A stretch of DNA of 64,000 nt from positions 3,820,501-3,884,500 of the forward strand of contig OY727103.1 of assembly GCA_963402885.1 (NCBI GenBank), in the 5' to 3' direction. Below are positions 765-60,630 of the stretch, piece by piece. Both the position numbers and the translations under genes were made by a program. The notes beneath the pieces are model-generated. The model did not search any database and was not told where the DNA came from. It saw only the letters and a program-made list of their open reading frames with translations. The DNA comes from Antedon bifida (lineage: Eukaryota; Echinodermata; Crinoidea; Comatulida; Antedonidae). Position 1 is the first letter of the stretch, and every line of letters starts with the position of its first letter.

Positions 765-935
765 ATCAGTGCCTGACATCGGACTGTTCGGCATGCTCGA
801 TTGCGAACCATTCCGATTGGGCGATAGCTGTTGAAGAAACCCTGGTGATGACTGCGCATTCAAGTATTGGTGTACTTGCTGCTTTTGTCGTTCTTGTACG
901 TGATAGCGTGTCGGATGCTGCAGCTTTGTTTTTAC
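765..935 (-). CDS. MITF: MITF shared exon 2 (57 codons)
   Basis: The acceptor on the minus strand is TTTCTTGCAG|GTAAAAAC and the donor is ACTGAT|GTAAGT. The exon is 171 bp and phase 0 at both ends. It encodes VKTKLQHPTRYHVQ, then QQVHQYLNAQ, and ends with SSMPNSPMSGTD. The vertebrate counterpart begins VQTHLENPTKYHIQQ, also in phase 0, and is the exon onto which all MITF first-exon isoforms converge. The proline-directed serine in PNSP corresponds to the ERK-phosphorylated serine 73 of human MITF-M. The exon is shorter than the 228-bp human one because the segment between QYL and PNSP is reduced. Confidence 0.92.
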
Positions 936-12900: not shown

Positions 12901-15900
12901 TGAATATTTGAATTATAGATTTTAAAGATATATTCTTACATAAAACTTAAGAACTGTGGAAAAAGAAAGAAGTTTGGACATGGACAGAGGTAGCTATTGT
13001 AGGCCAAAACAGGGAAGTATGGAAGGCAGAAGTTACAGAATAGGCCCTATTCTATTCTCCTAATGGGTGGAAGTATATTCTTCTTTAATCTAAAATACAG
13101 TAGTATTATTAACGAATGAAATAAAGATATGGTAAAATAACTTTTTTAAATAAACACTTTTCCGAAGTTCAAAATTACTAATCTGACCCTATAGTAATGT
13201 TTCGAATAAAGCTAAAAATGTTTCGAAATTGGCAACCAGCCATTCTATAATTTGTTGAACTGTTTAAAAGTAAGTCATGGTAACATTAAATATAAAAAAT
13301 GTTATAGTTAAAAACTTTGAACTACACAGAGTATATCCAGTAGAAATTAATCAAGAATATTAAAATTGAAAAAAGAGATTTAAAAAGAAGATTCCTTCTG
13401 GTTGCTAGGATAAACAAAGCTTACCGGACGATACTGCTGACAGTAACCATACTGATTCTGATTGGCCTGCTGCTGGTAATAGTACTGTTGTTGGTGGTAA
13501 AACGGCGCACCGAAATTATTACCGTGATTATAATACGCACAGTCTACCATTGTAATTATCAAAGTTTCAATCAAGTATAAATAAGCTTATCTCTACTATA
13601 CTACTGTCTGCTGCTCAGGTTCCAGCCCTCAACAGTGCATGAATGAAAGTGATATAAGTCGGCCTAGCATTACTAAAATCAAGAATGACGGCTACACACA
13701 TCTTTGCAATGCTTTTTAAGCTCAAACTTATTTCCCTCTCTTGTGTGTGTTCACTGTTACGACGACGTCACTTTCCTGAATTCTAATTGGCCCATGAACT
13801 TGGGTGTACGATCCAATACTTGCATATCATTGTACATTAGGCATACTACAATATTTTATGGTGTTTCTATTAGCCAATAGGAAGTAAGATAATTCATACA
13901 GATTTTATAAGTTTCAGGTATTTCCATAGTTGTATTTTAACATTAAAAAAACTGATGAAACATTAAAAAAACTGATGAAACATTAATATAAAATAAACAA
14001 TTAACATAATTTAAAACCTCTAATAACTTTATAATAAATAATAATACATTACAAAGAAAATACTTCAAAAATATTATGATCATTTTAAATTTGATTGATT
14101 AAATTGACTTTTTAAAAATCATAAATTTATGATGTGGTTTGCGGACTGTACCATTTATGGTGTTTAATGAATTCTCTACTTTTTGAGGGTATTAGACTAT
14201 ATCCGTTTATCCATGTAAGCTAGGCACAAAATAGACCTTTACATTTATCATTACAAATTCATCAAATTAAAATTATGTTGTTAGTAATTTTTGTCTAACT
14301 TTAATTAATATTTATTCAAGTGTTTTACGTTAATATTTTGTTTTGTTCGTGGCAAATTTAAGGCAGGTGTCGAGTACGAAGTAGACAGAGTTTGAGGGGG
14401 AAGGATTTGTATTGTGTCTGCCTATCTCCTACATAAGCATAATTATAGGCTAGTACATTACTGTGGTTCAATGACATATTCAAATTAAATTCAATTTACC
14501 ACTGATTACGCTAATTATGAACATCCTTTTCTAGCTTTATATTTCATTTTTTAATCTTAATTCTTCTAGCAATTCATTGCGAAGATAAATAAATATTATG
14601 AAATTAATTTATGCTAGTATCAATGATTAATTAGGCGGGAAAATGAGGAAATTATAAAGGAATTTGACTAAGAGAAAGGTCTTATATCTTAATATCCCTA
14701 CGGAATAATTGATCCTCATAAACGACATCCAAAGGCTTTCTACCTACGGTAAGTTGTATCCTAATGTTATCATTTCATAATTGTATGACTAAGGCGGGAA
14801 GGCCTAACAAGCATATTGTTGGGTATCCTAGAATTATTTTTCATAATTATTATTCATAATATTAATTATTATAACTTACTGTATTCATTAAATTATCTTT
14901 ATTTTGGACTTCATATCCATTGAACAAATAATAGACAAAAGTTACTCAAAAAAATCTGACAAAACTTTACATTTAGGTTTCAGAATATAACTATAAATAT
15001 TAAAAACAAAAGCTTGGTCCATTTTTTCTTAAGTTTCAATTCAGCTTGCCAATTAGTATTAGGCTATTTAGTTGATTATTTTATGCTCACAGTCACATAC
15101 CAATTCATAAAAGTCTGAAAATTGTTTTAAATATCCAGTTTAATACTGTAGCTGTATGTACAAATAGTAAAATATGCTTATAGCCCAGAGTGGGCTCATA
15201 TCTGAGTCTTATGGTATCAATGTATAAACAATCAAAATATCTCTCAAGTACTTTTGCGGATTTAAGTGTGGTGGTTAAAATTAATAACTTATGCACATTT
15301 TATAACAGGTTGTTCAAAAAACCACTAAAAAACACTTTCACAGTACTTAGTAATAGAGTTATTAATATAACATTTAAAAATCAATCATTTGACAATATAT
15401 CATCATAAAAAAGTTCTTCGATTATTCTCTTGAGTTTAAAAGACTGACGTAAAACTTCATAATTCTTAAGTGCGCTTTTTAAAGATTTACAGGAAATTAT
15501 ACAGCTTTTATCGGAGTGTAAATAAACAGTTTATAAATTCACAAATTCTTTAAAGTTCTAACAAAAATAGGTCCCAGGTTCCTTTCAATCTCTTAATCCC
15601 TCCTGCGGGAATGGAAGTGCATGTGATTACAGTTTATTAATTTTAGAACATGGAATGGTTACATATTTATAGAAAGGACAGATACTTTAAAAATAATATG
15701 ATTATGGGTCAGATATAGAGCAGGTCAAACTGAAGATGCACTTTGAGGCCCAGGTCAAATTTAGAATACCTTGAGACTGAGAGAGTAGTGAACTAATTTA
15801 TTTGACAAAGAATCAAAAATACAAAGGATATTTCATATCAAATGTCCTTATTAAAAATGTACAAAACTACAAGTTTGGAATATTTATAATAATTTGGAAG

Positions 15901-18900
15901 TGGAACATCCTTATCCTAAAAAAAGAATTTTTAAAAAATGATCCTAAATTAGCTAATCTCGAGGAGATTAGTCCAAATCAAAAAAGACTAGCTAATCTCA
16001 GAAAAAACTCAACACAAGAAAGATTTCCACATCTCAAGAACAGGCTAGCCCATTTTAGAACAGAATAACCCATCTCAGAACAGACTAGTCCGTCACAGAA
16101 CATACTATCCCATTTCAGAAAAGACTAACCATCTCAGAACTGAATAGCCTGTCTCAGAAATAACTAGCCAATCTCAGAACAGTCTAGCCCATTTCAGGAA
16201 AAAACAGCCCATCTCAGAAATAATTAGAAAAGAAAATCTAAGAACAGACAAGTCCATCTAAGAACAGACAAGCCCATCTTAGAACAGGCAAGTCTATCTT
16301 AGAACAGACAAGTCCATCTTAGAACAGACAAGTCCACCTTAGAACAGACAAGTCCATCTTAGAACAGACAAGTCCATCTTACAACAGACTAGCCTGTCTC
16401 AGAACGGATTGGCCTATCAAAAAAAAATCAAGATACTTACCACCAGAACATCTTTGGGAACTTCTGGTATAGTTGCCAACTGCTGCTGAAGCTCAATTGG
16501 TCTGGTCTGATTGAGTGATGTACTGGCAAAGTTGGCATTCTGTTGCTGTTCTAATAACTCCTGTTGAGCAACTTGCTGTCGCATCAACTCCTGCTTGAAA
16601 AGAACCCGAGAGGTCATCTGAGGGTCGTTGAGAGAAGAGTTTCTTCGTAGAGGACTAAACATAAAAAAAATTAATATATTAATAACAAATTTTTCTTTAG
16701 TCAATGATATCATTCTATTGATAGCTGAAAAGATGAGATATTTCAGTACAAATATCATGGATGAGTACTGTATGTGTGAACAGCAATTAAGAAATATATT
16801 AATAAGATTTGTTTGTACAGTACAAGCGAGTTTGTTCCTTCTCTAGTAACGACAATGTGAACTGACACCCGGAATATCGTTGATAGTACAATAGAATAAC
16901 ATGAGTTAGTGATAAGAATTGGTGTTAATCCATCATTAGCCCACAAAGATGGATGACATACAAGCCAAAAATGAAGCTGGGCTATTAATTACCAAATCAT
17001 TGACGAATGGTAGAATCCTTATTAAGGGCAGAACATGTACCCAAGAAAGTGTCCCTTAAAGCTCTGTCTACACTATCAAACTTGTTTGACCAAAAGAAGA
17101 AAGCCAGAGCTTTATAGAGGTTGGCTATAGTTAAACATTATATTCCTTTGTTTGTTTCACAAGAAGGTTTCCCCTAATAATTTAAGTGTCACAAAGGAGT
17201 GGTCTTTACTGTATTGACAAACATGCCATGTACATATTTTTAATCTTCTTTTTTTACCTTGACTGTGATTACAATAATAATTGAATAATTGTCTGCTAAC
17301 TTTCAAATATGGGTTACTTTGCACTTGTGTGTATATTTTAATTACATCAATCACTATTTCAGTGAAAAACAATTATTCTTATTAACCATTCTGTAAATTT
17401 AATTCAAACAACCATGTGAATAATTTATTTAAAAGATATTAGTGACCCTTTATTTATCTTTGTGAAGCAGAACGCAGGCTAACGATAAGCGACGCCATCA
17501 GGTGTAGATAGAAGGTTAATGGTGCTTAAGGCTTCTTAAAAATCATCTTTGAAACCGAGAAAAATGCACAGCTTGCAAAACCACAATTCATCGCCATGGT
17601 AATTAACAAGCTCGTCTTAATGCCGAGTGTAAGATTAAAGTGGTTATCAGGCTGGGGCAGATAATGGGCACCTCCAAGGCCGATAGGCTGGGGTTTACGA
17701 GCTACCCTCGGGGAATCCGGTAAGGGGAGATAAAAGAAGGCTGTGCCTGGTTACGGAAGCAGGCTCCATGTGTAGTGAAATGTAGGCCAAGTTGATAGAT
17801 CAGGCGCGAACAGGAGAGAAAGTTAGATAGCACATCTAGTAGTACTTACTAAATTCTGTTTAATTACACTCAACTGCTGTCAGCCTTATCTACAGTGTAA
17901 AACTAACACAAAGTAGTGTAATACGAATTGATAGGGCAGCGAATACATTGTTAGTAGGTCAACTTTGCGGGATTACCGTTATCTACAGCATCCAGGGAAA
18001 AGAAGATACTTATAATGTGTCTTATCAACCGTATTCCTGAAGAAATACTAATTTTTCATTGAATGTTTTCATGAACCAATTAATATGACCCCTGTACTAT
18101 ATTAGCAAGCGCATTATCGCAATTTGATTGCCCTTTCAAGCTTAATATTTTAAGTATATACTCCTTGAAATTAATTTTAATATAGATAGAATTTGAAAGA
18201 CAAGGGTTGCCAATAGATTTTAAAATAGCTTAAAAATGTAATAGTGTATGATGGAGATTAGATATGAAATTAAATTTAAAATGAAGTACCCACTTTTTTT
18301 ATTTTTTAGGGTCAATAAAATAATATTATAAAACTGAACCAAGATTCCGCTTCCTTTCCTTAAACTATTAAAAAATTATTGTCTGTCTCTGAATAGGAGT
18401 GTCCCCTTACTAGATGTCCCAACATATTAGAAAAATTTATTGTTATATTTATATTTATTTTTGTTATAAAATATATTATTTATTTAATTGTATTTTCAAA
18501 AAAACATTTTTTTTTAAATTGCAACATAATAAATATGTACTACTATACTACATGAGAATATGCATTCTTTTTAATTTAAAAAAGTTATTCTTTTATTAAG
18601 TGTAGGAATGACTCCATTGTTCTTGTGCCTTAAACTTTTAGGCCTAGAAAAAACAACTGTTGCCATTCAAAAAGTCACATAACCTATCATATAAGCTAAG
18701 AATTAAAGTGACAGGATCCAGCCGTCGTGACTAACAAACCAAATGCTTTCTATGACGTTAAAGAGAAAGCTAGCGCAAGACACGTTTCACTACATGCTGA
18801 GTTCGTCGACAACCTCCCAAATTAGTCGACGAATTCGCTACTTAAACGCCATCGACATCTTGTCCAGATCGCTAATGCGTGAAATTCATGGAAAAGATTA

Positions 18901-29091: not shown

Positions 29092-29731
29092 AGATCCTGA
29101 CAGAATCAAGAGGTTATATGCATATCATGCATATAACCTAATAATACAATATGTTCCTCCAAGAACAATTAACATTTGTAATTGTATGTAGACATTTTAT
29201 TGTATTTATTATGCATATTTGACATTCAATATCATTTCATTAGTGCACTTTTCTGATAGTGATACCGTCAGTTAAACATTTTGATAACTAATTTGTATGG
29301 CAGCCCCGGCTTTCATTGTGCATTAATTCTTATTATTTAAACAAATCCCCTCAAACTTATATTTAATATCAGACCTACAGGGACAGTAGCCTAGCTAAGC
29401 TAGGCCTAGTAAAATATAAATAATTATGTAAATTAATCAGCCAACTCAAGACATTTTCATTTTTACCATGCTCTCTATGCATTAGCTCAGGCCTAGGTCT
29501 CATTTAGTTGGGCATAGGTCCTAGGCCTAAGTATGTTTGTGACAGGCGACCACCCCTCCTCTTGTCTTACCTGTCCTCTTCCACTGATCTGCTTTTGAGT
29601 TCGCAGAAATCAAAATCGTCTTTTAACTGCAATTGTTTTAAGTCTGATACTGCTGACAGAGAAAACAGACTTTCATCAAAAGACAAGTCGTCACTCTCGT
29701 CGAATCCTAGGTCAACTCCTGACTCGGTCAT
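765..29731 (-). CDS. MITF: MiT/TFE-family transcription factor (MITF/TFEB-like), 5' part of gene
   Basis: This is a bHLH-leucine-zipper transcription factor of the MITF/TFEB/TFE3 family, which controls lysosome, nutrient-response and pigment-cell genes. Only N-terminal exons are in the window. The A-form joins 29571-29731, 16441-16654 and 765-935, with matching phases: AG plus T makes a Ser codon at the first join, and the second join is phase 0. The product starts MTESGVDLGF, has an acidic stretch, then FCELKSR (compare YYELKSQ in vertebrate MITF-A), then MTSRVLFKQELMRQQ, which resembles the RagC-binding N-terminus of TFEB. It continues with HPTRYHVQERQKQQVHQYL, matching the vertebrate NPTKYHIQQAQRQQVKQYL, and then MPNSPM, matching the vertebrate PNSPMA ERK site. 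The bHLH-zipper exons are off the left edge. Family assignment is secure. A single pre-duplication orthologue of MITF/TFEB/TFE3/TFEC is likely, but that is inference. Confidence 0.9.
1850..1968 (+). repeat. Polypurine (GA-rich) tract
   Basis: About 110 bases of almost pure A and G, built from irregular GAGGAA, GGAAGGGAAA and GAAGAG units. Such tracts can form triplex (H-DNA) structures. It is intronic to MITF and has no coding sense. Confidence 0.8.
2770..3098 (+). mobile_element. SINE-like element with ATAAA-rich tail, copy 1
   Basis: A G+C-richer island of about 330 bp contains GGCAAGGGTTCAAGGCC, which resembles a Pol III B box. Then come CTCGGATAAGGACTATAAACC, the conserved TTAAAGAACC and GGGGGTTACCCCGGTGAACTG blocks, and a tail of ATAAA-like repeats. 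A second copy at 54718-54905 shares the CCGTACCTAAAGAG, CACTTTAAAGAACC, TTACCCCGGT and GATAGGACAGTGATTAAT segments, so this is a dispersed family. Both are in the same orientation. I do not recognise the formal family name. Confidence 0.65.
6180..6660. promoter_or_regulatory. Possible intronic regulatory element
   Basis: This block is less AT-rich than the flanks and dense in homeodomain-type sites (TAATTA, GGATTA). It also holds a CTCF-like CCAGAGGGGGCG and a short inverted repeat around CACCTTCAAGGTGG. No repeat family or open frame explains it. This is inference from composition and motif look-alikes only. Confidence 0.25.
7027..7330 (+). repeat. Diverged tandem duplication
   Basis: Two adjacent segments (about 7027-7147 and 7166-7328) share TTTGAAACAGTGGCA, ACTTCTTGAAT, AATAGGCCTA, AGTACAAGGAAACTT and ATTATGTACAAGATATA in the same order, with small insertions in the second copy. 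Confidence 0.75.
8695..8898 (+). repeat. Two-copy tandem duplication, about 108 bp
   Basis: The segment TTCTTCCTTTTTTGTG through TACAACTACAG occurs twice head to tail with few differences (about 8697-8793 and 8804-8898). It creates a repetitive but non-coding open frame. Confidence 0.85.
10830..11060 (+). repeat. GA-rich minisatellite
   Basis: Imperfect units carry AATGCGGTAGCAA, GGCAGAGGGTG and GGGAGAGGAGAG. They repeat four to five times in a purine-rich context. The open frames seen on the opposite strand are low-complexity by-products. Confidence 0.7.
11818..11905 (-). mobile_element. tRNA-derived SINE remnant
   Basis: Read on the minus strand, an A-box-like AGCTTGGTGGTCTAATGG is followed about 45 bases later by a near-perfect B box, GTGGTTCGAATCCCAC. 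The 5' and 3' acceptor-stem halves do not pair, so this is a tRNA-like SINE head and not a functional tRNA gene. Confidence 0.5.
13425..13550 (-). CDS. MITF: M-like alternative first coding exon of MITF (42 codons)
   Basis: On the minus strand an ATG opens MVDCAYYNHGNNFG and a glutamine/tyrosine-rich run ending QYGYCQQYRP, followed directly by a strong donor, CCG|GTAAGC. The donor is phase 0, exactly what exon 2 (765-935) requires. The exon lies between the MTSR exon and exon 2. That is the position of exon 1M in vertebrate MITF, which encodes MLEMLEYNHYQ and also joins exon 2 in phase 0. Met, an acidic third residue and the YNH triplet coincide. A short upstream region with CRE-like, CCAAT and TATA-like sites precedes it. 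The frame upstream opens only from a TTG, so this ATG is the natural start. The exon itself is well supported. Homology with vertebrate 1M is inference. Confidence 0.72.
13551..13790 (-). promoter_or_regulatory. Candidate promoter of the M-like MITF transcript
   Basis: Reading the minus strand towards the ATG, there is a GGCCAATTAG (CCAAT box) near 13790-13780, a CRE-like TGACGTCG at 13770-13763, an alternating CA stretch, and a TATA-like ACTTATATCACT near 13659-13648, about 100 bases before the ATG. The vertebrate MITF-M promoter is known to be CREB-driven through a CRE. The resemblance rests on motif matches and their order only. Confidence 0.35.
15950..16412 (+). repeat. 20-bp minisatellite next to the MTSR exon
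   Basis: A tandem array of about 20-bp units, consensus AGTCCATCTTAGAACAGACA, becomes cleaner from left to right. The most regular units are at 16240-16400 and diverged ones (CCCATCTCAGAACAGACTAG) start near 15955. It ends about 30 bases inside the intron, downstream of the MTSR exon donor on the minus strand. Confidence 0.9.
16441..16654 (-). CDS. MITF: MITF MTSR exon (RagC-binding segment)
   Basis: The acceptor is TTTATGTTTAG|TCC and the donor is CTGGTG|GTAAGT, giving 214 bp with phase 2 in and phase 0 out. It encodes PLRRNSSLNDPQ, then MTSRVLFKQELMRQQ, then a Gln-rich segment ending IPEVPKDVLV. In TFEB and MITF the equivalent MxSR...(Q)LMREQ segment binds active RagC and brings the factor to lysosomes for mTORC1 control. 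The S-R pair and the L-M-R core are kept, and the Q of the vertebrate QL pair is E here. The internal ATG could also serve as a start for a short isoform. Confidence 0.92.
17058..17113. mobile_element. MITE family A, short copy
   Basis: AAAGCTCTGTCTACACTATC at the left and CCAGAGCTTT at the right are flanked by TTA on both sides. It is a deletion remnant of the family seen at 21076, 24625, 48005, 56720, 60631 and 61113. It sits inside a fragment of another hairpin element (AAGAAAGTGTCCCTTA). Confidence 0.7.
17460..17830. promoter_or_regulatory. Possible intronic enhancer, about 0.8 kb upstream of the MTSR exon
   Basis: This G+C-richer, non-repetitive block contains two GATA-type sites (CAGATAATGG, GGAGATAAAAG), a homeodomain-like TAATTAAC and a purine-rich GGGGAATCCGGTAAGGGG segment. 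It carries no open frame or transposon signature. Function is inferred from composition only. Confidence 0.25.
18715..18935 (+). other. Unassigned coding-like island
   Basis: A locally balanced, CpG-containing segment is open in one plus frame for 72 codons (MTLKRKLAQDTFHYML through SRSLMREIHGKD). It has basic and helical character but no family I recognise, and no clear acceptor or donor pair. It could be an old pseudogene, a transposon fragment or chance. Confidence 0.2.
21076..21564. mobile_element. MITE family A, long copy with internal hairpin
   Basis: The ends are AAAGCTCTGTCTATACTACC and GTAGTGTAGACAGAGCTTT-like, with TTA flanks. The middle holds extra sequence, including a perfect 14-bp stem with a CTAA loop (21450-21481, AGTGTTTAGAGTAG) and a C-rich stretch. 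The typical internal signature TGATGTGCCCATATATGGACATGATG is kept in pieces at 21301-21328. Confidence 0.8.
24553..24900. mobile_element. TACTGCAGTTACTGCA hairpin element with nested MITE A
   Basis: The left terminus CTACTGCAGTTACTGCA (24587-24603) and right terminus TTACTGCAGTAACTCCAGTA (24868-24890) are inverted copies. A related terminus occurs at 3380-3402, and a partial one at 48262-48282. A complete MITE A lies inside at 24625-24766 with TTA flanks, so this element is the older of the two. Confidence 0.6.
24625..24766. mobile_element. MITE family A, full copy
   Basis: Terminal inverted repeats of about 30 bp, AAAGCCCTGTCTACACTATC at the left and its complement GATAGTGTAGACAGAGCTTT at the right. 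They surround a self-complementary core with TGTGATGTGCCCATATATGG. The flanks suggest a TTA target duplication. Confidence 0.85.
27650..29139. mobile_element. Probable non-autonomous element with palindromic ends
   Basis: GGTTATATGCAT near 27673 is matched in inverted form inside the perfect hairpin AGGTTATATGCAT/ATGCATATAACCT at 29111-29139. The left edge also has TTCGTCA/TGACGAA. Inside are a tRNA-like segment on the minus strand (28080-27990: A-box-like TGGCTCGGTGGTCTG, B-box-like GAGATCGAGCC), a CpG-dense palindromic block (28500-28970) and an (AAAT)n run (about 29052-29092). The boundaries are tentative, and it may be several elements together. Confidence 0.4.
29052..29092 (+). repeat. 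(AAAT)n microsatellite
   Basis: Ten or so perfect AAAT units follow the CpG-rich block, like the simple tail of a retroposed sequence. Confidence 0.95.
29571..29731 (-). CDS. MITF: MITF A-type first coding exon
   Basis: The ATG opens MTESGVDLGFDESDD, an acidic serine-rich segment, and then FDFCELKSRSVEED, with donor GAGGACAG|GTAAGA in phase 2. The next exon supplies a T to complete a serine codon. Vertebrate MITF-A begins MQSESGIVPDFEVGEEF and carries YYELKSQPL before the MTSR exon, so both ends align. The frame opens further upstream only from a TTG, so this ATG is the natural start. The flanking sequence is less AT-rich, as expected for a promoter-proximal exon. Confidence 0.85.
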
Positions 29732-31350
29732 TTGATGTTCTTGTCTCCCTTTGTAAGACAAACTGTATGTAGGCTGTCCGATAAACAAAATCGTGTCCTA
29801 GAGCCTAGAGAGAGCTGCTACCCTTGTTAACTTGATTCGCGCCGTGTGTGGTTTACCGATGAATCATGCATGCTGTGTGTACATAGCAGCCTAGCCATTC
29901 GATAAGTTTTTTTAGTGAATTGATCATATGATTTTCGCATCGACTTCCTATTGGTTGAAGTTATATTCTGTAATGTCTAAATATAGAATTTATACAATGA
30001 CGTAATCGGAAACGTTTAAAATGACGCACTTACTGAATGAAAAATTTTATGAAAAGACTTCCTTAGTTTTTTTTAACAACGCATCCTATAAGTATTGTAT
30101 AGATTAAAATCAATCATTACATTAGATACTTCAATCAAATAAAATGATGAAATAATCACACTATTATTCTACTGGGCCTAACTAACAATATCTTTCTAAA
30201 ATGCAAGTTACAAAAAAAACCAACATAAATAATCCATTCATACGCAACATTATACTAAATGCAAATGAATATCACTATAAATAATTTGTGTTTTTTTAAC
30301 AGAAACTTGAGCCTTCTCTTTTTTTTAGACCACCTCAAGGATAACTGCAATTAACACTAATTATAATATTCTACTTGATAGTGCTGGCACTCTAGATCAT
30401 CCAACAACAAAACGATTAATACTGTGTCCATGTGGTAATGAAAGACGACAGACGGGACAGCAAAGCTATTAATCGAATAAGTTAAAAATTAAATTATAGG
30501 ACTAAAGTGATTTAATATTTGAAAATAATTATGCAGAGAATAATTTCACCAGTGTGCATAGCAAAAAGCTATACAAAACGACCTTATTGCTACACATTTA
30601 TAAAATTGTGTAGCAAAAAATACAATACAAATCTATGTTTCTCGACTCAAAAATGTTTGATAAACAACATTTTAAAATGAAATGTGTCCCTGTTACGTGG
30701 CACTATATTAATTTGTCTTTTTAAGTCGAGCGGTAAACCCTCGAAGGTGAATATACATTTGTATAGAGAGACTATAAATACTGTAAATGACTGTATTAAA
30801 ATATAGGCTTTGCTGCTTGAAAGAAGTTGTTTATGGTATACCATAATAATGGGATTATGTATTTGGTCAAAGAGATATTTGATATTTCAATGAAAACGTA
30901 CTGGAACTGGAAACTGGAACTGAAAACAAAAAACATCCCTATATGATATAATGGTTGTATCCGCATTGCATGAACCATGGAGGTAAAATGCATGAACGAA
31001 TCGATATACTGACCGGTCTCGATGCTGATGTGGTGTACAAAGGAATTAGGCTTAAAAAATGCGTTTATTTCTAGGCCGAATCATAATAGTGTTGTTAACC
31101 AGATAAAGTGTGTTGAATATTTTATTTATTAAAGTCTCAGCAAAACAAAGTGATAGGTCACATGGGTTTATGATGTCATTTGGATCATTATGAGAGGTTA
31201 TTTTCATTCGTTGTAATGTTAATCATTGTTTGACATGACATGGTAAACAGACGGAAGACGTTCTCCTCACTCAGTTTATAGTGGACGATAAATAAACAGA
31301 CGATTTTATAATTATATGAAAATAGAAGGAAATTCAACAACTGGATCACT
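29732..31350. other. Intergenic: MITF 5' region and SLC16 copy 1 upstream region
   Basis: The two genes are divergent. The MITF-side flank (29732-29900) is less AT-rich, with GATTCGCGCCG and a TGACGTAA (ATF/CRE half) near 29999. The SLC16 side (30940-31060) carries segments shared with the upstream regions of copies 2 and 3 (ATAATGGTTGTATCC; GTGGTGTACAAAGGAATTA). I see no gene between. Confidence 0.5.
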
Positions 31351-34300
31351 ATGATTTGTAGAAAGAAGGCAACGTTAGACCGTGGCTGGTCATGGGTCGT
31401 TTTATGTTCTTCATTTGTCGTAATGGCACTAAGTTACGGTGTTATTCTAAGCTTAACAGTTTATCTGGAAGATTTAAAAGATGAGTTTGACGTTGAATCA
31501 CGAGAAGCCGGGATGATTACTGGTGTTAGCCTGTTATTTGCTACATTTATAAGTATGTATATTCTTGAGCTACTAGTTCACTCATGCATGGAGGTTACCT
31601 CCATGCTCAATGCATCCCATTCAATCGTAATATCCGCTCTCAGCACTTAAAAACCAAACTGAAATATGCACAGTTACAAATTCTGTAATTTATTTATTTC
31701 AACAATATTTTACGATGGTAATAACATACTATTGCATGTCACGTGACGTAACCAACATGGGTCAAATACAGTCATAGGTTGAGAGGTGAAGCATTTTTTA
31801 AAACTTAATTAAGATATTGAAGGTGACTCGAGAGGGATGTTATATGTAATACATTAAACTTTCCGGAACTAGGCCAGCCCAACGGTGTCCGGTATTGGGA
31901 GAGTTGATGCAGGTGGTAATGTCATTTGTATAGTTAGTTTTGAGCTGGTTACTCCATGAGCCGAGTAAAAGATGAAATCTACCAATTGTGGCACATGCAA
32001 GGGAAATCGGACATAAGTCGCATTTTTAGAAACAGCCAAAAATAATAAAAGGCTGAAAATTACATTTTTTTTTTTTTTTACAGAAAATGATAGCTGAAAC
32101 AGTATTTATTTAAATTACCTTGGTATTTTCGATTTTTTGACAATAAATAAGTGTTAATATTTTGTGTGGTATGTTGGTTAAAAAGATGGTGTAAATTATG
32201 TATGATTTTTTATAAAACCTATCATGTTTTATGCTTAAATTGAAAGTGTTCCAGTGGAAAAATTGCATATAACGAATGTGCGAAGTCTCATTGAAATAAA
32301 ACAATTAGAATACCCCTTTGCTAAGGCGTAAACTGAAACGCCCTGTATATTTGTTTGTATTTGTCATTTCTTGTTACTTAAATTTAAAAGCAGTTCTCAA
32401 AACACTGATTGTAACAGCCAGTCTATCTCTAGAAGTAGACATGGTATCAAGATATTTTTTCAGCATTTTAAATCTTGGATTAGTTTGTGAAAATCAAATT
32501 TGAAAATTCCGACTTATGTCTGCTTTTCCTTGCATGTGCCACAATTATTATATTCAATTGTCATTATAATTCGTAGTGCTCACATAACCAACCCGGTTCT
32601 CTCAACACCAGTAAATTCTTGCAATTCTTGCCAAGTACTATAGACGCACACGAACCGACATGATTTTTCTTTTTAAATGCCTAAATTCAAAGTTTGATTG
32701 TAAATTTGTCTCTCAATTTCATTTTCGTGTCCCTGTGCGTAAACTTCGTATTAATAATGTTTTAAAAGTGCAGTTTTCTCGTGTTAATGTATGTAAAAGA
32801 ACGGTATTTTTTGTCGGGTTGCTCATTCATATATATAGTTTAGTTCAAATATTTCCTTACATCGATATTTTTAGTTGTAACAGTGAGCCGAGTATGTATT
32901 CCAATTCCGTTTTTGTCTGTTAATTATTATTTCTCAAATCAAATTTATCTAAAGCTAACCATGTATGTATAATACCTCCATGAGCTAACTAAGCTGCAAC
33001 CTTAACTGTCTATTATTTTACTTTTTTGCGCGTCTAAACTAAGCTTTAAAAACCGACCTTGGTTTCCACTTGCAACGCAATTCAAGGACGTAGGCCTGCC
33101 GCATCACAATTAGCAAATTGATCAATCATGACACGATGGAAAGTACTACGGTGGCATCCGGACTGTTGCTTTTGATTGCAAAATAAATCTATTTACCTGG
33201 CAAAATATAATTTTGCAAAGTATCGGGCAAAGTATAGTATACTACTTGCTTTGTTTAACGATAGCGTCCACAATTTTGAAGTTATCGCTCGGCTGAATGT
33301 TCGGGTGTTAATTGATGCCTATTGATTTTCAGGAAAAGCGATATATTATTCATGTCACAAAAGCTTATTATAATTATATTAATTAAAATCTTACTAGCTG
33401 TATCTTCCCTATGAGATATTAAATAGCTAGCCCTCTGTATTCTTTTAACATGGTCCGAAATATCAGAGTGAGCCTTCTCTTTCCAAATATAGTTTTTGCC
33501 AAGTACTTCACTCAGGATCTTCTCATTAATATTGTTGTTTTTTTCCAAAAGGTCCTGTAGCAAGTTATGTTTGCAACAAATTTGGTTTTCGCGCCACAAT
33601 CACGAGCAGCGGTTTGATTATAACAGTTTCAATGATCCTGAGTTCTTTTACGACAACATACACTCAGATCTTCTGTTCTTCGGCATTAACAGGTACGTAT
33701 ATGGTACGCAGGGGTGGGGGGGGGGGGGACTCAGAAAAGTAGATGTACGTTAGGGAGAAATATGACGACTTTAGAGGGACATTTGACGACGTTATGATGG
33801 ACAAGGCCATACATGGCTGCAGTCGCGTGCTCAAATTTGAGTTAGTGTTTACCGACCAACCGATCGACATAGTGAGCTGTAGATTTTCACTGTACAGGTC
33901 TCATTGGTTCCCCACTATAGGAGCAACACAAGGGCGTAAGCGCAACGCAAGCGAGTTGATAAAAATAACAAGATCCAAAACACATTCTGTTGTTCTGTTC
34001 AGCTGCCGTACCACCGAAATACAGGCCTATTTTCATTGACCTTTTTTCTTTATAGGTTGTGGAGTCAGTTTTGCCTATACAACATGCTCGGTTATTATGG
34101 GGTTCTACTTCAGGCGGTACTACGTGTTGGCAAATGGAATTGTGTTCGCTGGAGTTTCCACAGGGATGTGCGCCTTTCCCATCTTATTTGAATATCTTAA
34201 TTCTCAATATACTTGGCGACAATGCTACAGAATAATCGCCGCTATGTGTCTCAATATTTCTGTGGCAGGTGCTCTTATTGCTCCTCATCCTCCTATAGAC

Positions 34301-35837
34301 ACGGACCTAAATAATCCGAAGAAAGGAGAAATAACGCAAGGTCCGGACGGTGACAACCAAACGATAAACTCAATTGAATATACAGCTGCTAACACTAACG
34401 AAGATAACGAATCAATTTCATTAGAAGAGCAAAATAACGAACTTCCTGAAGTCGATATAAATCATCAGAAGATCCACGAGGAAAGCCCAGACCCAGACGT
34501 GGAAGGGCAAACACCAGAAAATACTAAAACAAATTATATACGACTACTTTCGTACGCGGCACATTTTCTTAACGCTTTTTGTAGAGTATTTGAACTCAGG
34601 TTATTTCTCAAACTAGATTTTGTAATATTGTTCACAACTATGTACATTTTATCAGTAGGTTACATGGGAACTATTATACACTTCGTTGCAAGATTTGAAT
34701 GGGTCGGGTTCACACCAGCAAAGTCTAGTTTTCTCCTCTCTTTGATGGGCATCGGAGGTATAATATCTCGTCTCACTCACGGGTTCCTTGTGGACAGACA
34801 TTATATAACAGCGATTAACTTATACTTTGTAAACTTGATACTAGCTGCAGCGTTCGTGTTTTCGCTGACGTTCGTATCTTCGTATCTATGGAGCCAAATC
34901 TTGTCATTTTGTATTGGTATGTGGATGGGGCTGTTCCCTCCGCTTGCTCCAGTTATTATCAAGGACCTGGTGGGGATCAAACGATTCAACAGCGCTTTTG
35001 GATTGACGATTGTATCTTATGGACTTGCTGATTTTACTGGCGGCTTTTTCGTAGGTTAGTATCCTTTATCACTCAAATCATCACAAAAAATGCACCGTAG
35101 GCTTGTCATACCATGTATTTCAAATAAAGTAAAGTTGAGAAGATTTGAACGATTCCCAATGCTGTATCTTTACATACTATATCTATTTCCGAGGTATCTT
35201 GGAGTATTTGGTAATACAGCATCTCATTAATGTCACATGTGGTGCCTGTATCATGTAAGGTTGGGTTAAGTTTACTACTAGGTACATTTTGAAACACAGT
35301 GTGATGTTGTATCGCCAAATATTCCCATGATACTTCGGAAATAGGCTGCGTTTTTGGAGTAAACAACAAAACCCCGACATTTACGTTATTTTCAATTTTT
35401 GAAAACACACACACATAAATATTACTTTACTAATGTTTATCTGACTTTCTGTTTTTTTTATTACTGTCCAAAATTCGATGGAAACAACCGGACTGGTTTC
35501 TGAGATAGAAAAGTTCAAATCTGCTCTCCATGTCGATGTATTTTGGAACTGACTATTTCCTTTCATTGTCTTCACTTTGTATGTCCTGTCATACAAGTTT
35601 TCCGATCAGTACAATTATTATATAAATATTCTATATACTTTTTATCAATTTTTTACAGGTTGGATATACGATTTGACGGAAGACTACAACAAATCGTTTT
35701 ATTTGACCAGTGCTTGTCTTCTGTCTGGTGGCCTGTTAATGTTAGTATTAATCATAATGAATAAAAAGAAAGTGAATCGCAGATTAAAACTCGTCAACGG
35801 TGTGAGCATACCCCTCAAAAACGGGGACAGCGTGTAG
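31351..35837 (+). CDS. SLC16-family monocarboxylate transporter, tandem copy 1
   Basis: This is a predicted 12-helix major-facilitator transporter in the plasma membrane, of the family that moves lactate-type monocarboxylates, aromatic amino acids or creatine. Coding exons are 31351-31552, 33552-33692, 34056-35054 and 35659-35837. All joins are phase 1 with GT-AG sites, giving about 506 residues, a normal SLC16 length. Family motif 1 appears as LDRGWSWVV (about residues 9-17) and motif 2 as YFRRYYVLANGIVFAG (about 132-147). The central cytoplasmic loop (about 185-300) is acidic and variable. The C-tail is basic (NKKKVNRRLK). Exon 2 is nearly identical to copy 2, making these the closest pair. 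Substrate cannot be read from the sequence. A polyadenylation signal AATAAA follows at 35932. Confidence 0.88.
31985..32552. mobile_element. Non-autonomous TIR transposon in SLC16 copy 1 intron 1
   Basis: ATTGTGGCACATGCAAGGGA at the left and its inverted counterpart CCTTGCATGTGCCACAAT at the right extend over about 38 bp with few mismatches, including CGGACATAAGTCG against CGACTTATGTCTG. The interior is AT-rich and has no transposase. I see no convincing target-site duplication. Confidence 0.7.
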
Positions 35838-35931
35838 TTTGAAAACAGCCCGGGGTGAAGATGTTAAAATTACCAGAGAGGTCGAGACAGCGGCGCTCAA
35901 TGGGTGCGGGTGGATTTGTTTACTAATTATC

Positions 35932-35937
35932 AATAAA
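35932..35937 (+). terminator. Polyadenylation signal, SLC16 copy 1
   Basis: AATAAA lies about 95 bases after the copy 1 stop codon and is followed by a GT/T-rich stretch (GGTGTTGTCTTTTTGTTTTG). Confidence 0.6.
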
Positions 35938-36038
35938 TTATTTTAAATGAACATTTTATACAGTATTGGTGTTGTCTTTTTGTTTTGAAAATTCAGTCGT
36001 TTGGTCTTTGTCGATGATAGGTGTTTGGTGAAAAAGGT

Positions 36039-36080
36039 TTAATCAGAAAAAAGAGTGAATTTCACTCTTTTCCTGATTAA
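36039..36080. repeat. Near-perfect hairpin downstream of copy 1
   Basis: TTAATCAGAAAAAAGAGTGA and TCACTCTTTTCCTGATTAA form a stem of about 20 bp with almost no loop and one or two mismatches. Confidence 0.8.
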
Positions 36081-36329
36081 TTTAATCATAGCCTATAATA
36101 ATTGACTATACCCCGAGTCTATTAATATTTAGTAGATATGTGCTTAATTGGCTCTCTAAACGTTATACCCGGACTATGAATATTGTGGCTATGTAAAATA
36201 CTTGAGTGTGTATTTACGTATTGCAATCTGTACAAATAGAAAGTTGAATAGTAAAATTACAATACAGATCAAAATCACGTACAAAAGGTAAAATATGCAA
36301 AATGCAAATTCTAGGCTTTAGTAACTATC

Positions 36330-36660
36330 CAGCAGGTAAACATCCCCATGTAGACAATGGTTGAATCCATAATTGCTAGTACCGTAGACGAAAATATTTA
36401 CAGTACACTAAATAAACAAATATGTCCGTATGTTAGAATGGTTGCGTCCATATTGCTATTACTGTAAAAAAAAAACATATCCGTATGTTAGAATGGTTGC
36501 GTCCTCAATGCTGTTGGAGGTCAAATTATGGAACAGACAGAGCAATACATGCGGTTATTATCAAAATTGCTAGCAGTTACTGTGGTGTACAAAGAAAGGA
36601 ATTAAGCTAAAAAATAGGTGCATTTGAGCCTGACGTAAAAAGTATAGAAAGTGTAAATTT
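36330..36660 (+). promoter_or_regulatory. Repeated upstream motif block of SLC16 copy 2
   Basis: The motif TTAGAATGGTTGCGTCC occurs twice here (about 36433 and 36488), with a third relative, CAATGGTTGAATCCATAATTGC, at 36355. The segment GTGGTGTACAAAG with AATTAAGCTAAAAAAT follows at about 36581-36620. Similar motifs precede copy 1 (30950, 31031) and copy 3 (42311), so this is either duplicated promoter sequence or a shared control element. Confidence 0.5.
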
Positions 36661-36904
36661 CATTGTTCAATAATCCAGCAATACACATTACAAGTACAAG
36701 TCACCACGGGTCGGTCGATATGCCATTATGATTTTTGTGATAGATTTTAATTCATGATACGGTTGTTGTACAACGTGTGCTCAGTATGATGGTTAGAACA
36801 GGTGGAATAGGGTTAACAATAATTAAAAAATTCATATTCATTGTTTTATGTATGTATTACATATAAAACAGAGCAGGAAGGGCAATCCGGATCATTAGGT
36901 GAAT

Positions 36905-39900
36905 ATGAGTTTTGGAAAAAGGGTAGCGTACTTAGACCATGGCTGGTCGTGGGTTGTTCTCTGCTCTGCGTTTGTCGGGATGGCACTGAGTTTGGGAGTT
37001 ATTCTGAGCTTAACGGTATATCTGGACGATTTGAAAGAAGAGTTTGACGTTGGATCACGAGGAGCTGGGATGATCGCTGGCGTTAGCCTGTTATTCACTA
37101 CATTTATAAGTATGTATACGGTCTTCTTCATTGTTCACTCATGCATATCAATACAGCCACGGTGTCAAACAGTACAGTATCTAACTAATGAATTCGAAGT
37201 ATACGAGGCTATGATACAGTAAAAGAAAATGTATATAATACGGTAACTGATGAATTACTCTAGGCCCTATACATCTGTCTGTAAAGTTAGGTGACCAAGT
37301 CCTTGTGCCCGTCCTTGTGTCACGGGGTATTGCAGTAATTGATTTGGTAAAACCAGGGCCTACAAAAAATGATAATTTTGTGTTTTTTTCTCCAAAAGGT
37401 CCTGTAGCAAGTTATGTTTGCAACAGATTTGGTTTTCGCGCCACAATCACGAGCAGTGGTTTGATTATAACAGTTTCAATGATCCTGAGTTCTTTTTCGA
37501 AAACATACACTCAGATCTTATGTTCTTCGGCATTAACAGGTACGTACTCGCCGTTAGCAAGCATAACTTTGTTGATGACGTACTTCTAGGAGAATGTTGT
37601 TTGCTCGTGTTTGCAAACTAAAGTTTGCTAGACTTGGTTTACAGACGTATAGAAAAAGAGTGTCGGGACAAAAGACGAATTGACGTGTTAAAAATAATTT
37701 AGACAACGTTAGGGTAAATTTGGCGAAAAATACAACCAACGATTTTTAACCACTGAGTAAGTATACTGTAGAAGAAGAGTTAGTTTGGACTTTCAGCAAG
37801 TAAGTATACTGTAGAAGAAGAGTTAGTTTGGACTTTCAGCATGTAAACATACTGTAGAAGAAGAGTTAGTTTGGACTTTCAGCATTAAGTATACTGTAGA
37901 AGAAGAGTTAGTTTGGACTTTCAGTAAGTAAGTATACTGTAGAAGAAGAGTTAGTTTGGACTTTCAGCATTAAGTATACTGTAGAAGAAGAGTTAGTTTG
38001 GACTTTCAGTAAGTAAGTATACTGTAGAAGAAGAGTTAGTTTGGACTTTCAGCAAGTAAGTATACTGTAGAAGAAGAGATTGTTTGGACTTTCAGCAAGT
38101 AAGTATACTGTAGAAGAAGAGTTAGTTTGGACTTTCAGCAAGTAAGTATACTGTAGAAGAAGAGTTAGTTTGGACTTTCAGCAAGTAAGTATACTGTAGA
38201 AGAAGAGTTAGTTTGGACTTTCAGCAAGTAAGTATACTGTAGAAGAAGAGTTAGTTTGGACTTTCAGCAAGTAAGTATACTGTAGAAGAAGAGTTAGTTT
38301 GGACTTTCAGCAAGTAAGTATACTGTAGAAGAAGAGTTAGTTTGGACTTTCAGCAAGTAAGTATACTGTAGAAGAAGAGTTAGTTTGGACTTTCAGCATT
38401 AAGTATGCTGTAGAAGAAGAGTTAGTTTGGACTTTCAGCAAGTAAGTATACTGTAGAAGAAGAGTTAGTTTGGACTTTCAGCATTAAGTATGCTGTAGAA
38501 GAAGAGTTAGTTTGGACTTTCAGAAAGAAGTACAGTGTGCTGTAGAAGAACACTTGGTTTGAACCCTTAACGTTTCAATACTACTACTCAACATTGCCAA
38601 TGCTTTTAACATATTACATTTGTTATAAATGCCTTTGACGTTATAAGTGTATTTTACCGTGAAAATCTACCATTCATAACAAAGTCGCTGCTCTTTTTTT
38701 AAAAAGCGCGTACCCGAATGGGCGTTATCTGTTTTAAAATGTTCATGTTTTCTTCATAGGTTGTGGAGTCAGTTTTGCCTATACAACATGCTCGGTTATT
38801 ATGGGGTTCTATTTCAGGCGGTACTACGTGTTGGCAAATGGAATTGTGTTCGCTGGAGTTTCCACAGGAATGTTCGCCCTTCCCGTTTTATTTGAATTTC
38901 TTAATTCTCAATATACTTGGAGACAATGCTACAGAATAATCGCCGCTATCTGTCTTCATATTTCTGTGACAGGCGCCCTTATTGTTCCTCATCCTCCTAT
39001 AGACTCGGGCCTGACGAAACCGAAGCGAGTAGACACAAAGCAGCAAGGATTGAACGGTGACAACCAAACGATAAACTCAATTGATTATACAGCTGCTAAA
39101 ACTAACGAAGATAAAGAAACAATTTCATTAGAAGAGCAAAATAACGAACTTCATGAAGCCTCGCATAGCGTCGATATAAATCATCAGCAGATCCAGAAAA
39201 GCCCAGACCCAGACGTTGAAGGGCCTACACCAGAAAATACTAAAACAAATTCTACACTTTCGTATGCGGCACATTTTCTTAACGCTTTTTGTAGAGTCTT
39301 TGAAATTAGGCTGTTTCTCAAATTGGATTTTATAATTTTATTCTTAATTATTTACATCTATACAGCAGGTTACATGGGAACTATTGTATACTTTGTTGCA
39401 AGATTTGAATGGGTCGGGTTCACACCAGCAAAGTCTAGTTTTCTCCTCTCTTTGATGGGCATCGGAGGTATAGTATCTCGTCTCACTCACGGGTTCCTTG
39501 TGGACAGACATTATATAACAGCGATTAACCTTTTCTTTATAAACCTGGTAATGTCTGCAGTGTTCGTATTTTTACTGACGTTCGTATCCTCGTATCTATG
39601 GAGCCAAATCTTGTCATTTTGTATTGGCATGTCATTGGGGTTGTTACCTCCGCTTGCTCCAGTCATTGTTAAGGATCTGGTGGGGATCAAACGATTCAAC
39701 AGCGCTTTTGGATTGACGATTGTATCTTATGGACTTGCTGATTTTACTGGTAGCTTATCTGTAGGTTGGTATACGTTTTATTACTCAAATATATATAAAA
39801 AAAGTAATCATTAAAGTAAAGTCTGTGGTACACTCTGTGTTACGTTTCAAAAGGTATAGTGACGATTAAAAAGAATCAATACCCGACATCATGCCTATGC

Positions 39901-40239
39901 CTGTATCATTTCCTTCATATTACCTTGTCCATAGAAATAGATATTAAATCGATCATTCATATATTTTTTACAGGATGGATATACGATTTGACAGAAGACT
40001 ACAACAAATCGTTTTATTTGACCAGTGCTTGTCTTCTGTCTGGTGGTCTGTTAATGTTAGTATTAATCATAATGAATAGAAAGAAAGAAAATCTCAGCTT
40101 GCCATTATATGAAACAGGTACCGATAGTGCTGATGATCAACAGTCCGAGCTAACTAAAGAATGCGAGTCGCCTAATTCTCCAACAGTGCGAACCAATCAA
40201 ATAACTGAGAGTCACCTAATTCCCAACATTTCGAGCTAA
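36905..40239 (+). CDS. SLC16-family monocarboxylate transporter, tandem copy 2
   Basis: Coding exons are 36905-37109, 37399-37539, 38760-39764 and 39974-40239, all phase 1, giving about 538 residues. The start MSFGKRVAYLDHGWSW is the first ATG of the frame. The open frame upstream begins at a GTG, which is not a eukaryotic start. LDHGWSWVV and YFRRYYVLANGIVFAG are the SLC16 signatures. The C-tail is the longest of the three, acidic and Ser/Thr-rich (SADDQQSELTKECESPNSP), so trafficking or partner binding may differ. The donor after exon 3 (G|GTTGGT) is weaker than in the other copies (G|GTTAGT), and read-through there meets a stop after about 15 codons. Intron 2 holds a 43-bp minisatellite. 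Substrate unknown. Confidence 0.88.
37756..38545 (+). repeat. 42-43-bp minisatellite carrying splice-site-like sequence
   Basis: Eighteen well-matched units and one diverged terminal unit share the core ACTGTAGAAGAAGAGTTAG then TTTGGACTTTCAGCAAGTAA. Spacer variants at the unit join are CAAGTAAG, TAAGTAAG and CATTAAG. The array fills most of intron 2 of SLC16 copy 2 and ends about 210 bases before exon 3. Most units contain TTTCAG followed within three bases by GTAAGTA. Confidence 0.95.
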
Positions 40240-42550
40240 CCGAAAGTTGGGAGGGTCGTCTACTCAACAGTATATCAACTAGGGTCACCCTAATTCTTAT
40301 AAGTCGAGGTGTGTGAACATACATGGAACAAGGTGAGCCCAAGGGATGGGGATGGGTTTTATTATCAATTTATCAATAATAACAATAATTGTTAATATCT
40401 TAACGAACATATATTATTAAGGAAAATATAATGAATGGATTTATTGGAGAAAGAATTCATTAAAACAAATCTACGGTTAATGTACATATTTTACAATTAT
40501 TTTGGGATCTAATAGTCGGATCAACACAGGGCCGTAGCCAGGATCTGTCAAGGGGGGGGGGGGGGGGGTTCGGACAATAAGTATTTGGGTCACTGCGCCG
40601 CGGGTGGGGTCTGAGGCGAATTTAGTGACACCCCTTGATGGCCGGAAATGATACTCTCGTACATAACATTCATGATAAATGGCACCTCTAATTGGCCGGA
40701 AAAACACTCTCATGCAGCATGCTACGATTGAACAAAACGATCGTACTTTTTTCCTCCTCCTCACGATAACATTTGTTGCCGCCGTATGTTAGATGCGCGT
40801 GCTCTGTGTGCGGAACCACCGCCGATTGTTTGATCATTCACTCGGTATTTTGTTTTGCGTTCAAGTTACAAGCCCCCCCAAAAAAGCACAATTTGGGTGA
40901 GAAGGCAAATTCAATGCTTATTATAGCCAGGGGCGGACCCAGGGGTGTTTCCCTTGTGGCCCGGGCAACAGCCTTAATTTCATACTAAATGTTGTTTCTG
41001 CCACTAAATTAAAATTGAGTTCCATTTCATCGTATACAATATCCATCCGGACCCGGAACTTGATAGGCTTAGTCATAAAGTAGTTACAGAGTTGCAGGGC
41101 ATTTTATTATTGTTGAATTTTTTGATATTAAAACGACCTTCACAACCAAAATATTTCTTTTCATTTTAAATGGAACGCTACAAAAATAATCATCGGAGCA
41201 TGAATACCTAATAACCAGATAAGAACGTATCTTTGTTACGTTTTACTATCAATCCATTTTCATGTCACGCAATCCATTTTTCAACAATATAGTAGTATAA
41301 TAATAACATTTTGATTGAATATAGAAAAAAATAATCGAATGCTATAGGTGTAAACTACAGTACATGATACCATAGATATTATAGTGTAATATATTAAATT
41401 CACTATAATCCACTATACTTCATAGCCACACATACATATTGTAGGTAACCGCAGCGTTCCATTTTTTGATGTACGTCGGAAGGCTATATATGCATGCTGA
41501 CTGCCAGTGATCGAAACAATAGGTACGCGGTTGTCTAGCGGTGTCCTTTGTACGATTCGTTCGTGCCCAAGCTTACGTCAATATCATGTTACATCCTGGG
41601 ACCAAAAATTCGTATTATTTTTCGGCAACCAATTCATTTGTTTAACAATAAGGTATGAGTTATTCACGAACGAGTTAACGAATTTTTCAATTTACAAATA
41701 ACCTTGTATTGTGGGGCACGTATTTGGAGGATTTACAGAGATGAGGGTGGTGAGGTATTGGGGATGTCGGGGATGGGGGTTCGCAGTCGGTTACTAGGGG
41801 GGGGTTCGCTGTAAAGGGGGGGGGGGGGGGTTCGCTGTAAAGGGGGGGTTCGCCCGAACCATAAAAACCCCCCTGACTACGGGCCTGCAACAGTGAGTGA
41901 CAAACTTAGCCCATAACTTCCATAAGGCCAACTCAGGCAGCGCCGTAGGAAGAGGCCCGAGACGAGTCGTCTCGAGAGAAAATTAAACACGACGAACTAA
42001 AAACTATGCCCGATGCTATATCAAGTCTCGTCGGTATTCAACTCGCCGACGATTTCAATATATCTCGTCGGGCCTCGTCCTTTTATTCAATATACATTAC
42101 TATAGGCAGGGAGTAATTAAAACTCCCAGGCATGCTTTTAATTGACTGGTAAACGATAATATGGTGTCAAAATATGGATAGTAGAAATATATATTACTTT
42201 ACTTTATTTATTCATTCGCCCGAAGTGAAACGTTTCGGTATTTTCAGTACTGCACTCCAGCGGTATACATAAAAGTATCATCCAGCCAAAAAAAAAAGTA
42301 CAATCCCCCATATTAGAATGGTTGAATCCATAATTGCTGGTAGGTTAACCTATTAATATTGAAGAGGCCTGATCGGTTGAGAAAGTACGCCAATACAGGT
42401 GCAATTTGTAATGTCATATACACAATTGTTAATATTATTCAAAATGATGAGACCAAAACACGATTGAGAAATTGAACATTTTGGTAGAAAGAGCAGACGG
42501 TAAGAGAAGACGGTGATCACTGGAGAAAGATAGCAGACGATAAGAGGAGA
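40240..42550. other. Intergenic between SLC16 copies 2 and 3
   Basis: Most of this is a TIR transposon (40527-41887). The right part (42302-42345) carries ATATTAGAATGGTTGAATCC, the motif shared with the upstream regions of the other two copies, about 240 bases before the copy 3 start. I see no gene. Confidence 0.6.
40527..41887. mobile_element. Non-autonomous DNA transposon with G-run termini
   Basis: The left end CAGGGCCGTAGCCAGG is followed by an 18-20-base G run and TTCGG. The right end, read inversely, is CAGGCCCGTAGTCAGGGGGG, then TTTTTATGGTTCGGG and further G runs. Both sides are flanked by CAACA (40522-40526 and 41888-41892), a 5-bp target duplication. No intact transposase is visible. 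A second end-like motif, CAGGGGCGGACCCAGG, at about 40929 may mark another insertion inside it. The superfamily is uncertain. Confidence 0.7.
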
Positions 42551-45500: not shown

Positions 45501-46071
45501 CTAATAATACCCTTTCACACCAAAACTACAATAACGATTTTAGAAACCTGGACATTTTAACAATAAAACAAATAACAATCACATTGAGGCAGGTTCCGTT
45601 CCGGAAGCCGGAGAAAAATAAAATCATGAAAAATGTAGTTAGTGCTGAGTGTTGTTGAATAATAGATGCGTTCACACTAACCAATAAAAACAAATACAGT
45701 AAATGTTCTCGGTTCTTCCCACTAGATATGGACGTAAGGGCAACGCAAGTGATTTGACCAATCACAGGCGATGGACTAATCAAACTGTCGGTTTGTGAAT
45801 GGTCAACTTGCTCTTGCGTTGCGTCTACTTTCTTGCGTGTCATGGAAACCAAGAGATGTGCGCGTTACAAATCTTTTATCACCAAATAATTAATTCATTT
45901 ATTTTTGTTTTAACAGGTTGGATTTACGATTTGACCCAGAACTACAACAATCCATTTTATATGACCAGTGCTTGTCTTTTGTTTGCTGTCTTTCTCATGT
46001 TAATATTAAAAGTAATGAATAAAAAGAAAATAAATATTTCGTCTAACATTTTACAAAAGACCATGGTATAG
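42551..46071 (+). CDS. SLC16-family monocarboxylate transporter, tandem copy 3
   Basis: Coding exons are 42551-42752, 43202-43342, 43682-44695 and 45917-46071, all phase 1 with GT-AG boundaries, giving about 503 residues. Signatures are LDRGWSWVV and YFRRHYVLANGIVFAG. The central loop is acidic and differs from copies 1 and 2, and the C-tail is short (NKKKINISSNILQKTMV). This is the most diverged of the three outside conserved helices. Yet a stretch of exon 3 (44292-44461) is almost base-for-base identical to copies 1 and 2, suggesting gene conversion. Introns carry two different minisatellites and two MITEs. A polyadenylation signal AATAAA is at 46302. Confidence 0.88.
42841..42965. mobile_element. 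MITE family B, diverged copy
   Basis: The ends GGGCTGGTCCTCACC and GCGGGAACCAAGCC, with internal AACGCAAATGC and GCGTTGCGTC, match the GCTTGGTTCCCACTAG...GACGCAACGCAAG family found at 45706, 53199, 57446 and 62938. It lies in intron 1 of SLC16 copy 3. Confidence 0.6.
43438..43605 (+). repeat. CpG-rich minisatellite, about 37 bp
   Basis: About five imperfect units of the form GCGCGCGTACATATTTCAT then TGGTGTTTGAAC lie in intron 2 of SLC16 copy 3. This is the same intron position where copy 2 carries an unrelated minisatellite. The CpG density is striking in this AT-rich window. Confidence 0.85.
44733..45190 (+). repeat. 48-bp minisatellite in SLC16 copy 3 intron 3
   Basis: Units combine AAAAGGGGCGACTTTGAAAC, GGGGCGACTTTGTGAATGG and ACGACTTAT into 48-bp repeats, with some shortened 32-bp units lacking the middle block. 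The array begins about 40 bases after the exon 3 donor. It is open in one plus frame because 48 is a multiple of three, but nothing suggests it is translated. A run of about 17 Gs follows at 45203. Confidence 0.92.
45706..45853. mobile_element. MITE family B, copy in SLC16 copy 3 intron 3
   Basis: It begins GGTTCTTCCCACTAG, contains GGCAACGCAAGTGATTTGAC and the reverse GTCAACTTGCTCTTGCGTTG, and ends CATGGAAACCAAG. The inverted arrangement matches the family. Confidence 0.65.
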
Positions 46072-60516: not shown

Positions 60517-60630
60517 AGTTGTAGAGTGTCTTTAATAAATTCTACAAAAAAAAGACAATTTTATTTAAATGTGGTAAGGATAGCAGACGTATAGATTATA
60601 TTTGGTCACCTACTACAAAAATGGGTTCAC

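Follow-up and report, generated by a model that had tools for sequence, protein, structure and literature searches.

Vertebrate MITF genes carry an alternative first exon, exon 1M, which lies in the intron that separates the MTSR exon (1B1b) from exon 2, joins in phase 0 and encodes an 11-residue peptide, MLEMLEYNHYQ. The MITF gene analysed here, which probably comes from an echinoderm and lies partly on a 64,000-nucleotide stretch of DNA (the window), has an ATG-started open frame in the same intron. The locus therefore raises two questions: is this frame a genuine first exon of MITF and, if so, is it the same exon as exon 1M? The parts of the gene that bear on them are as follows.

29571–29731, minus strand: MITF exon 1A-like first coding exon (MTESGVDLGF...FCELKSRSVEED), ending in phase 2, donor score 7.36

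16441–16654, minus strand: MTSR exon (PLRRNSSLNDPQMTSRVLFKQELMRQQ...VPKDVLV) with the Rag-docking segment, ending in phase 0; identified by sequence, tblastn and PF15951

13425–13550, minus strand: candidate alternative first coding exon MVDCAYYNHGNNFGAPFYHQQQYYYQQQANQNQYGYCQQYRP, 126 nt, 42 codons, Tyr/Gln/Asn-rich, in phase 0 to exon 2

13419–13424, minus strand: GTAAGC, the splice donor of the candidate exon, score 7.33

765–935, minus strand: MITF exon 2 (VKTKLQHPTRYHVQERQ...PNSPMSGTD); identified by sequence, tblastn with an MITF query and PF15951

The gene is a member of the MiT/TFE family, as the preliminary description had recognized. Joined exons 1A, MTSR and 2 score 77.7 bits with PF15951 (the MITF/TFEB/TFEC/TFE3 N-terminal domain; cut-off 27), and the match begins at profile position 1 when the MTSR exon is joined with exon 2. 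The bHLH domain scores 62.2 bits with PF00010 (HLH), and the zipper was located by tblastn alone. These two are among the remaining exons of the gene, which lie on the same contig downstream of the window; a transactivation exon was assigned by inspection on a weak tblastn hit (E 33) and carries no weight in the analysis. For the parts searched, the genome has a single MITF locus. Exon 1A was assigned from its place, its phase and its ELKS motif. The MTSR exon is completed by one base (AG/T), which matches the phase in which exon 1A ends. A tblastn search with an MITF-A query did not report the exon, and its resemblance to TFE3 is equalled by 18 of 2000 shuffles (112 of 2000 for MITF-A). The ELKS motif is retained as in TFE3 and MITF-A and lies behind an acidic stretch containing Ser. 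From its sequence, a first exon of the 1A type may be old, for which there is moderate support.

The rest of the window holds an MFS transporter gene present three times in tandem (31312–46068, plus strand), which by eye has the look of a monocarboxylate transporter; PF07690 was found in both of the large exons of these copies that were tested. Behind the third copy lies a minisatellite-like array (44693–45270) with several open frames across the two strands. A BDP1-like gene (53359–55236, minus strand) has PF15963 on 54979–55236, with its larger exon assigned by eye, and there are also an eEFSec C-terminal domain (51725–51997, plus strand) and DSS1/SEM1 (60283–60531, minus strand).

That the DNA is not from a vertebrate, as had been suggested from the window, agrees with the mitochondrial genes, for which code 9, the echinoderm code, gave the best fit among the three scored. 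This code is common to echinoderms and flatworms, so an echinoderm is the best reading of the result. For ND1 the scores with codes 9, 5 and 4 were 357.9, 334.7 and 342.9 bits, and for the N-terminal cytochrome b domain they were 264.9, 258.8 and 258.5 bits, respectively. In the mitochondrial genome (15,844 bp; genes named by eye), nad4L and tRNA-Arg lie between nad4 and nad5, and cox1 directly abuts cox2. Scouras and Smith reportedly described in 2006, to judge from their title (cited in PMC5856267), a unique nad4L rearrangement within crinoids. The nuclear assembly adds 11 large contigs of 19–37 Mb (about 314.7 Mb in sum; the other 11 of the 22 contigs sized, from an assembly of 27, are each below 0.3 Mb), a number equal to the n = 11 of crinoids. 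Gene order and contig number thus suggest a crinoid.

The candidate exon sits between the MTSR exon (16654–16441) and exon 2 (935–765). Its ATG has a good start context (ATTACAATGG; A at −3 and G at +4), and the first in-frame stop upstream is a TAA at 13589. There are eight ATGs in the 300 nt upstream, the closest at 13640 and 13670. Exon 2 begins at 935 on a codon boundary and the join with the candidate exon (...QQYRP to VKTKLQHP) is therefore in phase 0. On a generic weight matrix, the donors of the candidate exon and of exon 1A score almost the same (7.33 and 7.36), above those of the MTSR exon (5.93) and exon 2 (3.31), so that the ATG exon with a strong phase-0 donor that had been proposed for this position stands. 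The 112 nt ahead of the ATG (13551–13662) contain no acceptor that scores above 0, which is what a first exon should show. Weak acceptors are found further upstream at 13663 and 13672; the latter scores 0.76, against 0.75 for the real MTSR acceptor, and by way of it the candidate could be part of a later exon. An in-frame cassette exon is rejected on the in-frame stop and the acceptor-free 112 nt. The genome contains one match to the DNA of the exon, and a search with the joined peptide recovered its own two exons alone (both counts being lower bounds); there was thus no sign of a retrocopy or of a second copy. When the joined peptide was compared with viral and prokaryotic contigs, no relatives were confirmed among 14 and 94 pattern matches, respectively, a result with no bearing on animals.

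It is unlikely that this frame arose by chance. The intron from the MTSR exon to exon 2 is 15,505 nt long, and the candidate is its sole ATG frame of at least 20 codons that meets a phase-0 donor scoring at least 5; the next frame with such a donor, a single one, has 12 codons, and the opposite strand of the intron has none of at least 10 codons. Markov-2 simulations of the intron (n = 300) gave a frame of 40 or more codons with a donor of at least 5 in 4.7% of cases, and with a donor of at least 7.3 in 1.0%. The composition of the 42-residue peptide also falls outside the intronic null: 26 residues are Tyr, Gln, Asn or His and none is Lys, Ile, Leu, Ser or Thr. For comparison, we took 784 overlapping stop-free windows of 42 residues from both strands of 43,224 nt of MITF intron, in which the first group of residues had a mean of 7.4 and a maximum of 16, and the second a mean of 17.4 and a minimum of 7. 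Markov-5 simulated ATG frames (n = 3886) reached a maximum of 19 and a minimum of 8, respectively. This measure of composition was picked after the peptide had been inspected, but the gap to the null is wide nonetheless. The repeat finder called no tandem repeat over the exon, and 53 of the 784 null windows have an entropy as low, so the peptide is not a plain repeat. Its synonymous codon choice gives 3.94 bits in favour of coding (expected 1.90 ± 2.34 for coding and −1.89 ± 2.39 for noncoding sequence), on a measure that separates the true strand from antisense in 71% of 79 known 42-codon blocks. The absolute fit of its codons to local coding usage is poor (z = −2.65). The G+C content of the exon is 44%, a value reached by 5% of 126-nt intron windows.

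We consider it probable that the candidate is genuine and serves the echinoderm MITF gene as an alternative first coding exon. Two minor rivals are to be weighed against this. The first, which we regard as unlikely, is that the frame is unexpressed, being either a cryptic triplet-rich stretch or a dead exon, and has a good donor by accident. The core of the exon is indeed rich in CAR and TAY triplets, and a frame this long with a good donor does turn up in 1 to 5% of the simulated introns; however, no repeat was called, the codon usage tilts towards coding, and the ends of the peptide that lie outside the core are likewise free of Lys, Ile, Leu, Ser and Thr.

The second is that the coding strand is the other one, on which a transmembrane terminal exon of an unrelated gene (INKAYRTILLTVTILILIGLLLVIVLLLVVKRR...) would be read from an open plus-strand frame at 13344–13577. 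This has the look of a membrane helix: 27 of 42 residues are hydrophobic, which is matched by one of the 784 null windows, the 19-residue hydropathy of 3.59 is equalled by none of them, and there is a fair acceptor at 13409 (score 3.03). The hydrophobicity is automatic, however, because the NAN codons of the minus strand (Tyr, Gln and Asn) read as NTN (Leu, Ile and Val) on the plus strand. The plus-strand frame has no in-frame ATG, and its best donor scores 0.74. Its Leu codons are CTG in eight of ten cases compared with 13% in local genes (p = 3e-6), whereas on the minus strand Gln is CAG in eight of ten (p = 0.02), and its fit to coding usage is worse (z of −3.44 versus −2.65). We therefore hold antisense coding to be very improbable.

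If the candidate is a first exon then it should have a promoter of its own, and the region upstream contains the following elements.

13551–13900, minus strand: candidate promoter and 5′ UTR, with CCAAT at 13790–13786, a CRE-like TGACGTCG at 13770–13763 and upstream ATGs

13874–13885, plus strand: 12-mer CCAATAGGAAGT, 324 nt upstream of the candidate-exon ATG

29943–29954, minus strand: second copy of the 12-mer CCAATAGGAAGT, upstream of exon 1A

In vertebrates the promoter of exon 1M is under SOX10, PAX3, LEF1 and CRE control. The CRE-like site was rejected as proof of an M-type promoter, as the pattern occurs at chance level (three found in the window versus 1.21 expected). The 12-mer was spotted by eye, that is, picked after looking, and its two copies in the window compare with an expectation of 0.01. 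In the genome of 315.6 Mb it has 29 copies, and the reversed control word has 19. Among 2942 random pairs of 500-nt segments, 11% have a common word of at least 12 nt; for each upstream region up to 1500 random segments were tried, and none gave a longest common word of at least 12 nt with at least five G+C, which is what CCAATAGGAAGT has. Within the 300 nt upstream of each first exon the longest common word is merely an 8-mer. Other close pairs of the 12-mer are found in the genome on C9 (32 kb apart) and C13 (8 kb apart), so nearness by itself is not unique. We also tried and rejected the 12-mer as a piece of a repeat family: 20 of the 29 copies were compared, and none of the 40 longest alignments spans the site in both partners. 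The occurrence of the same word upstream of both first exons is support for the putative promoter, not proof of it.

The candidate exon had also been put forward as a possible counterpart of vertebrate exon 1M, and this part of the preliminary description is not supported. With the two peptides anchored at Met there are identities at four of 11 positions; Met, an acidic third residue and YNH are in common, and the lengths are 42 and 11 residues. Among the 1288 ATG-started peptides of the window, two reach the BLOSUM62 score of the candidate against exon 1M, the candidate itself included, and 1.4% have at least four identities. Composition-matched shuffles of the candidate peptide score equally in 0.55% of cases, have at least four identities in 3.4% and have YNH in place in 0.13%. 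Given the free choice of comparison, the likeness is suggestive at best.

True homology with exon 1M would mean that the ancestor shared by echinoderms and vertebrates already had the A/M dual-promoter design, in which one gene makes a nutrient-gated and a nutrient-free isoform, and had it before there were melanocytes; either the vertebrate exon would since have been reduced to 11 codons or the echinoderm exon would have grown. The shared intron and phase, the Met and YNH at equal offset and the rarity of so high a score in the window point this way; the difference in length, the seven mismatched positions and the shuffles, a small share of which reach such a score through composition alone, point the other way. 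In addition, the MITF-M literature that we found (PMC9600194, PMC10522771 and PMC9363479) concerns vertebrates in the portions available. We think homology a long shot, and a separate origin of the candidate exon is likelier than a common one. On paper the exon would work like that of MITF-M, yet it is not classifiable as exon 1M.

How a real alternative first exon at this place might act can be set out from the exon structure. A second promoter, in the intron past the MTSR exon, would begin transcription upstream of 13550, and splicing would join the candidate exon in phase 0 with exon 2. The predicted protein is without exon 1A and without the MTSR Rag-docking segment, the loss of which had been foreseen correctly for this isoform. 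Its new N-terminus would consist of 42 Tyr/Gln/Asn-rich residues, probably disordered, and it would retain the bHLH domain together with the phospho-site motifs that the common exons encode, PNSPM (exon 2) and SSSCPADL (downstream), which we take to correspond to Ser142 and Ser211 of TFEB. The binding of TFEB to Rag maps to the MTSR segment. In human, mouse and Drosophila-derived cells, TFEB reaches mTORC1 through its binding to Rag (PMC9363479). Because it has lost the MTSR segment, the isoform would evade this recruitment by Rag to lysosomal mTORC1 and would be more nuclear, whatever the nutrient state; we infer this nutrient independence from the domain content. The Tyr/Gln-rich head could serve as a low-complexity activation segment. 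To our knowledge, vertebrate MITF-M has nothing like such a head, and we know of none among the mammalian MITF, TFEB and TFEC first exons.

If the exon is used, the choice between promoters at the intron in question would separate a Rag-gated from an ungated MITF in an invertebrate too, and MITF-M could be regarded as one example of a solution that recurs, not as something that melanocytes invented. With a single MITF locus in the parts of the genome searched, one gene could allow the study of roles that are spread over four vertebrate paralogues.

No M-like first exon of an invertebrate was described in the titles and abstract openings of the MITF papers listed, with few subscription journals covered. 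A literature search found no paper for the peptide MLEMLEYNHYQ, and the available parts of PMC1890551, PMC10522771 and PMC12828906 contain nothing on invertebrate first exons. In humans, sequencing reads fall on exons 1A, 1B1b and 1M, and exon 1M mRNA is found in cells of the melanocyte lineage (PMC9600194, in the portion accessible). The human MITF isoforms come from alternative promoters, and mitfa of zebrafish is compared to the M form (PMC9363479). The candidate resembles the alternative first exons of mammalian MITF, TFEB and TFEC covered there, in which alternative promoters give varied N-termini on common domains; unlike the candidate, those are from mammals. Closer in descent is sea urchin Pl-Mitf, also an echinoderm MITF orthologue, which is found in pigment and skeletogenic cells; the passages on sea urchin Mitf in the same paper (PMC9363479) mention no alternative first exon, in contrast to what is proposed here. 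The closest parallel in design is vertebrate MITF-M, which likewise has an ATG exon of its own past the MTSR exon (1B1b) and ahead of exon 2, a phase-0 join and a product without the MTSR segment; the echinoderm exon differs from it in encoding 42 rather than 11 residues, in being rich in Tyr and Gln and in sharing four of 11 identities.
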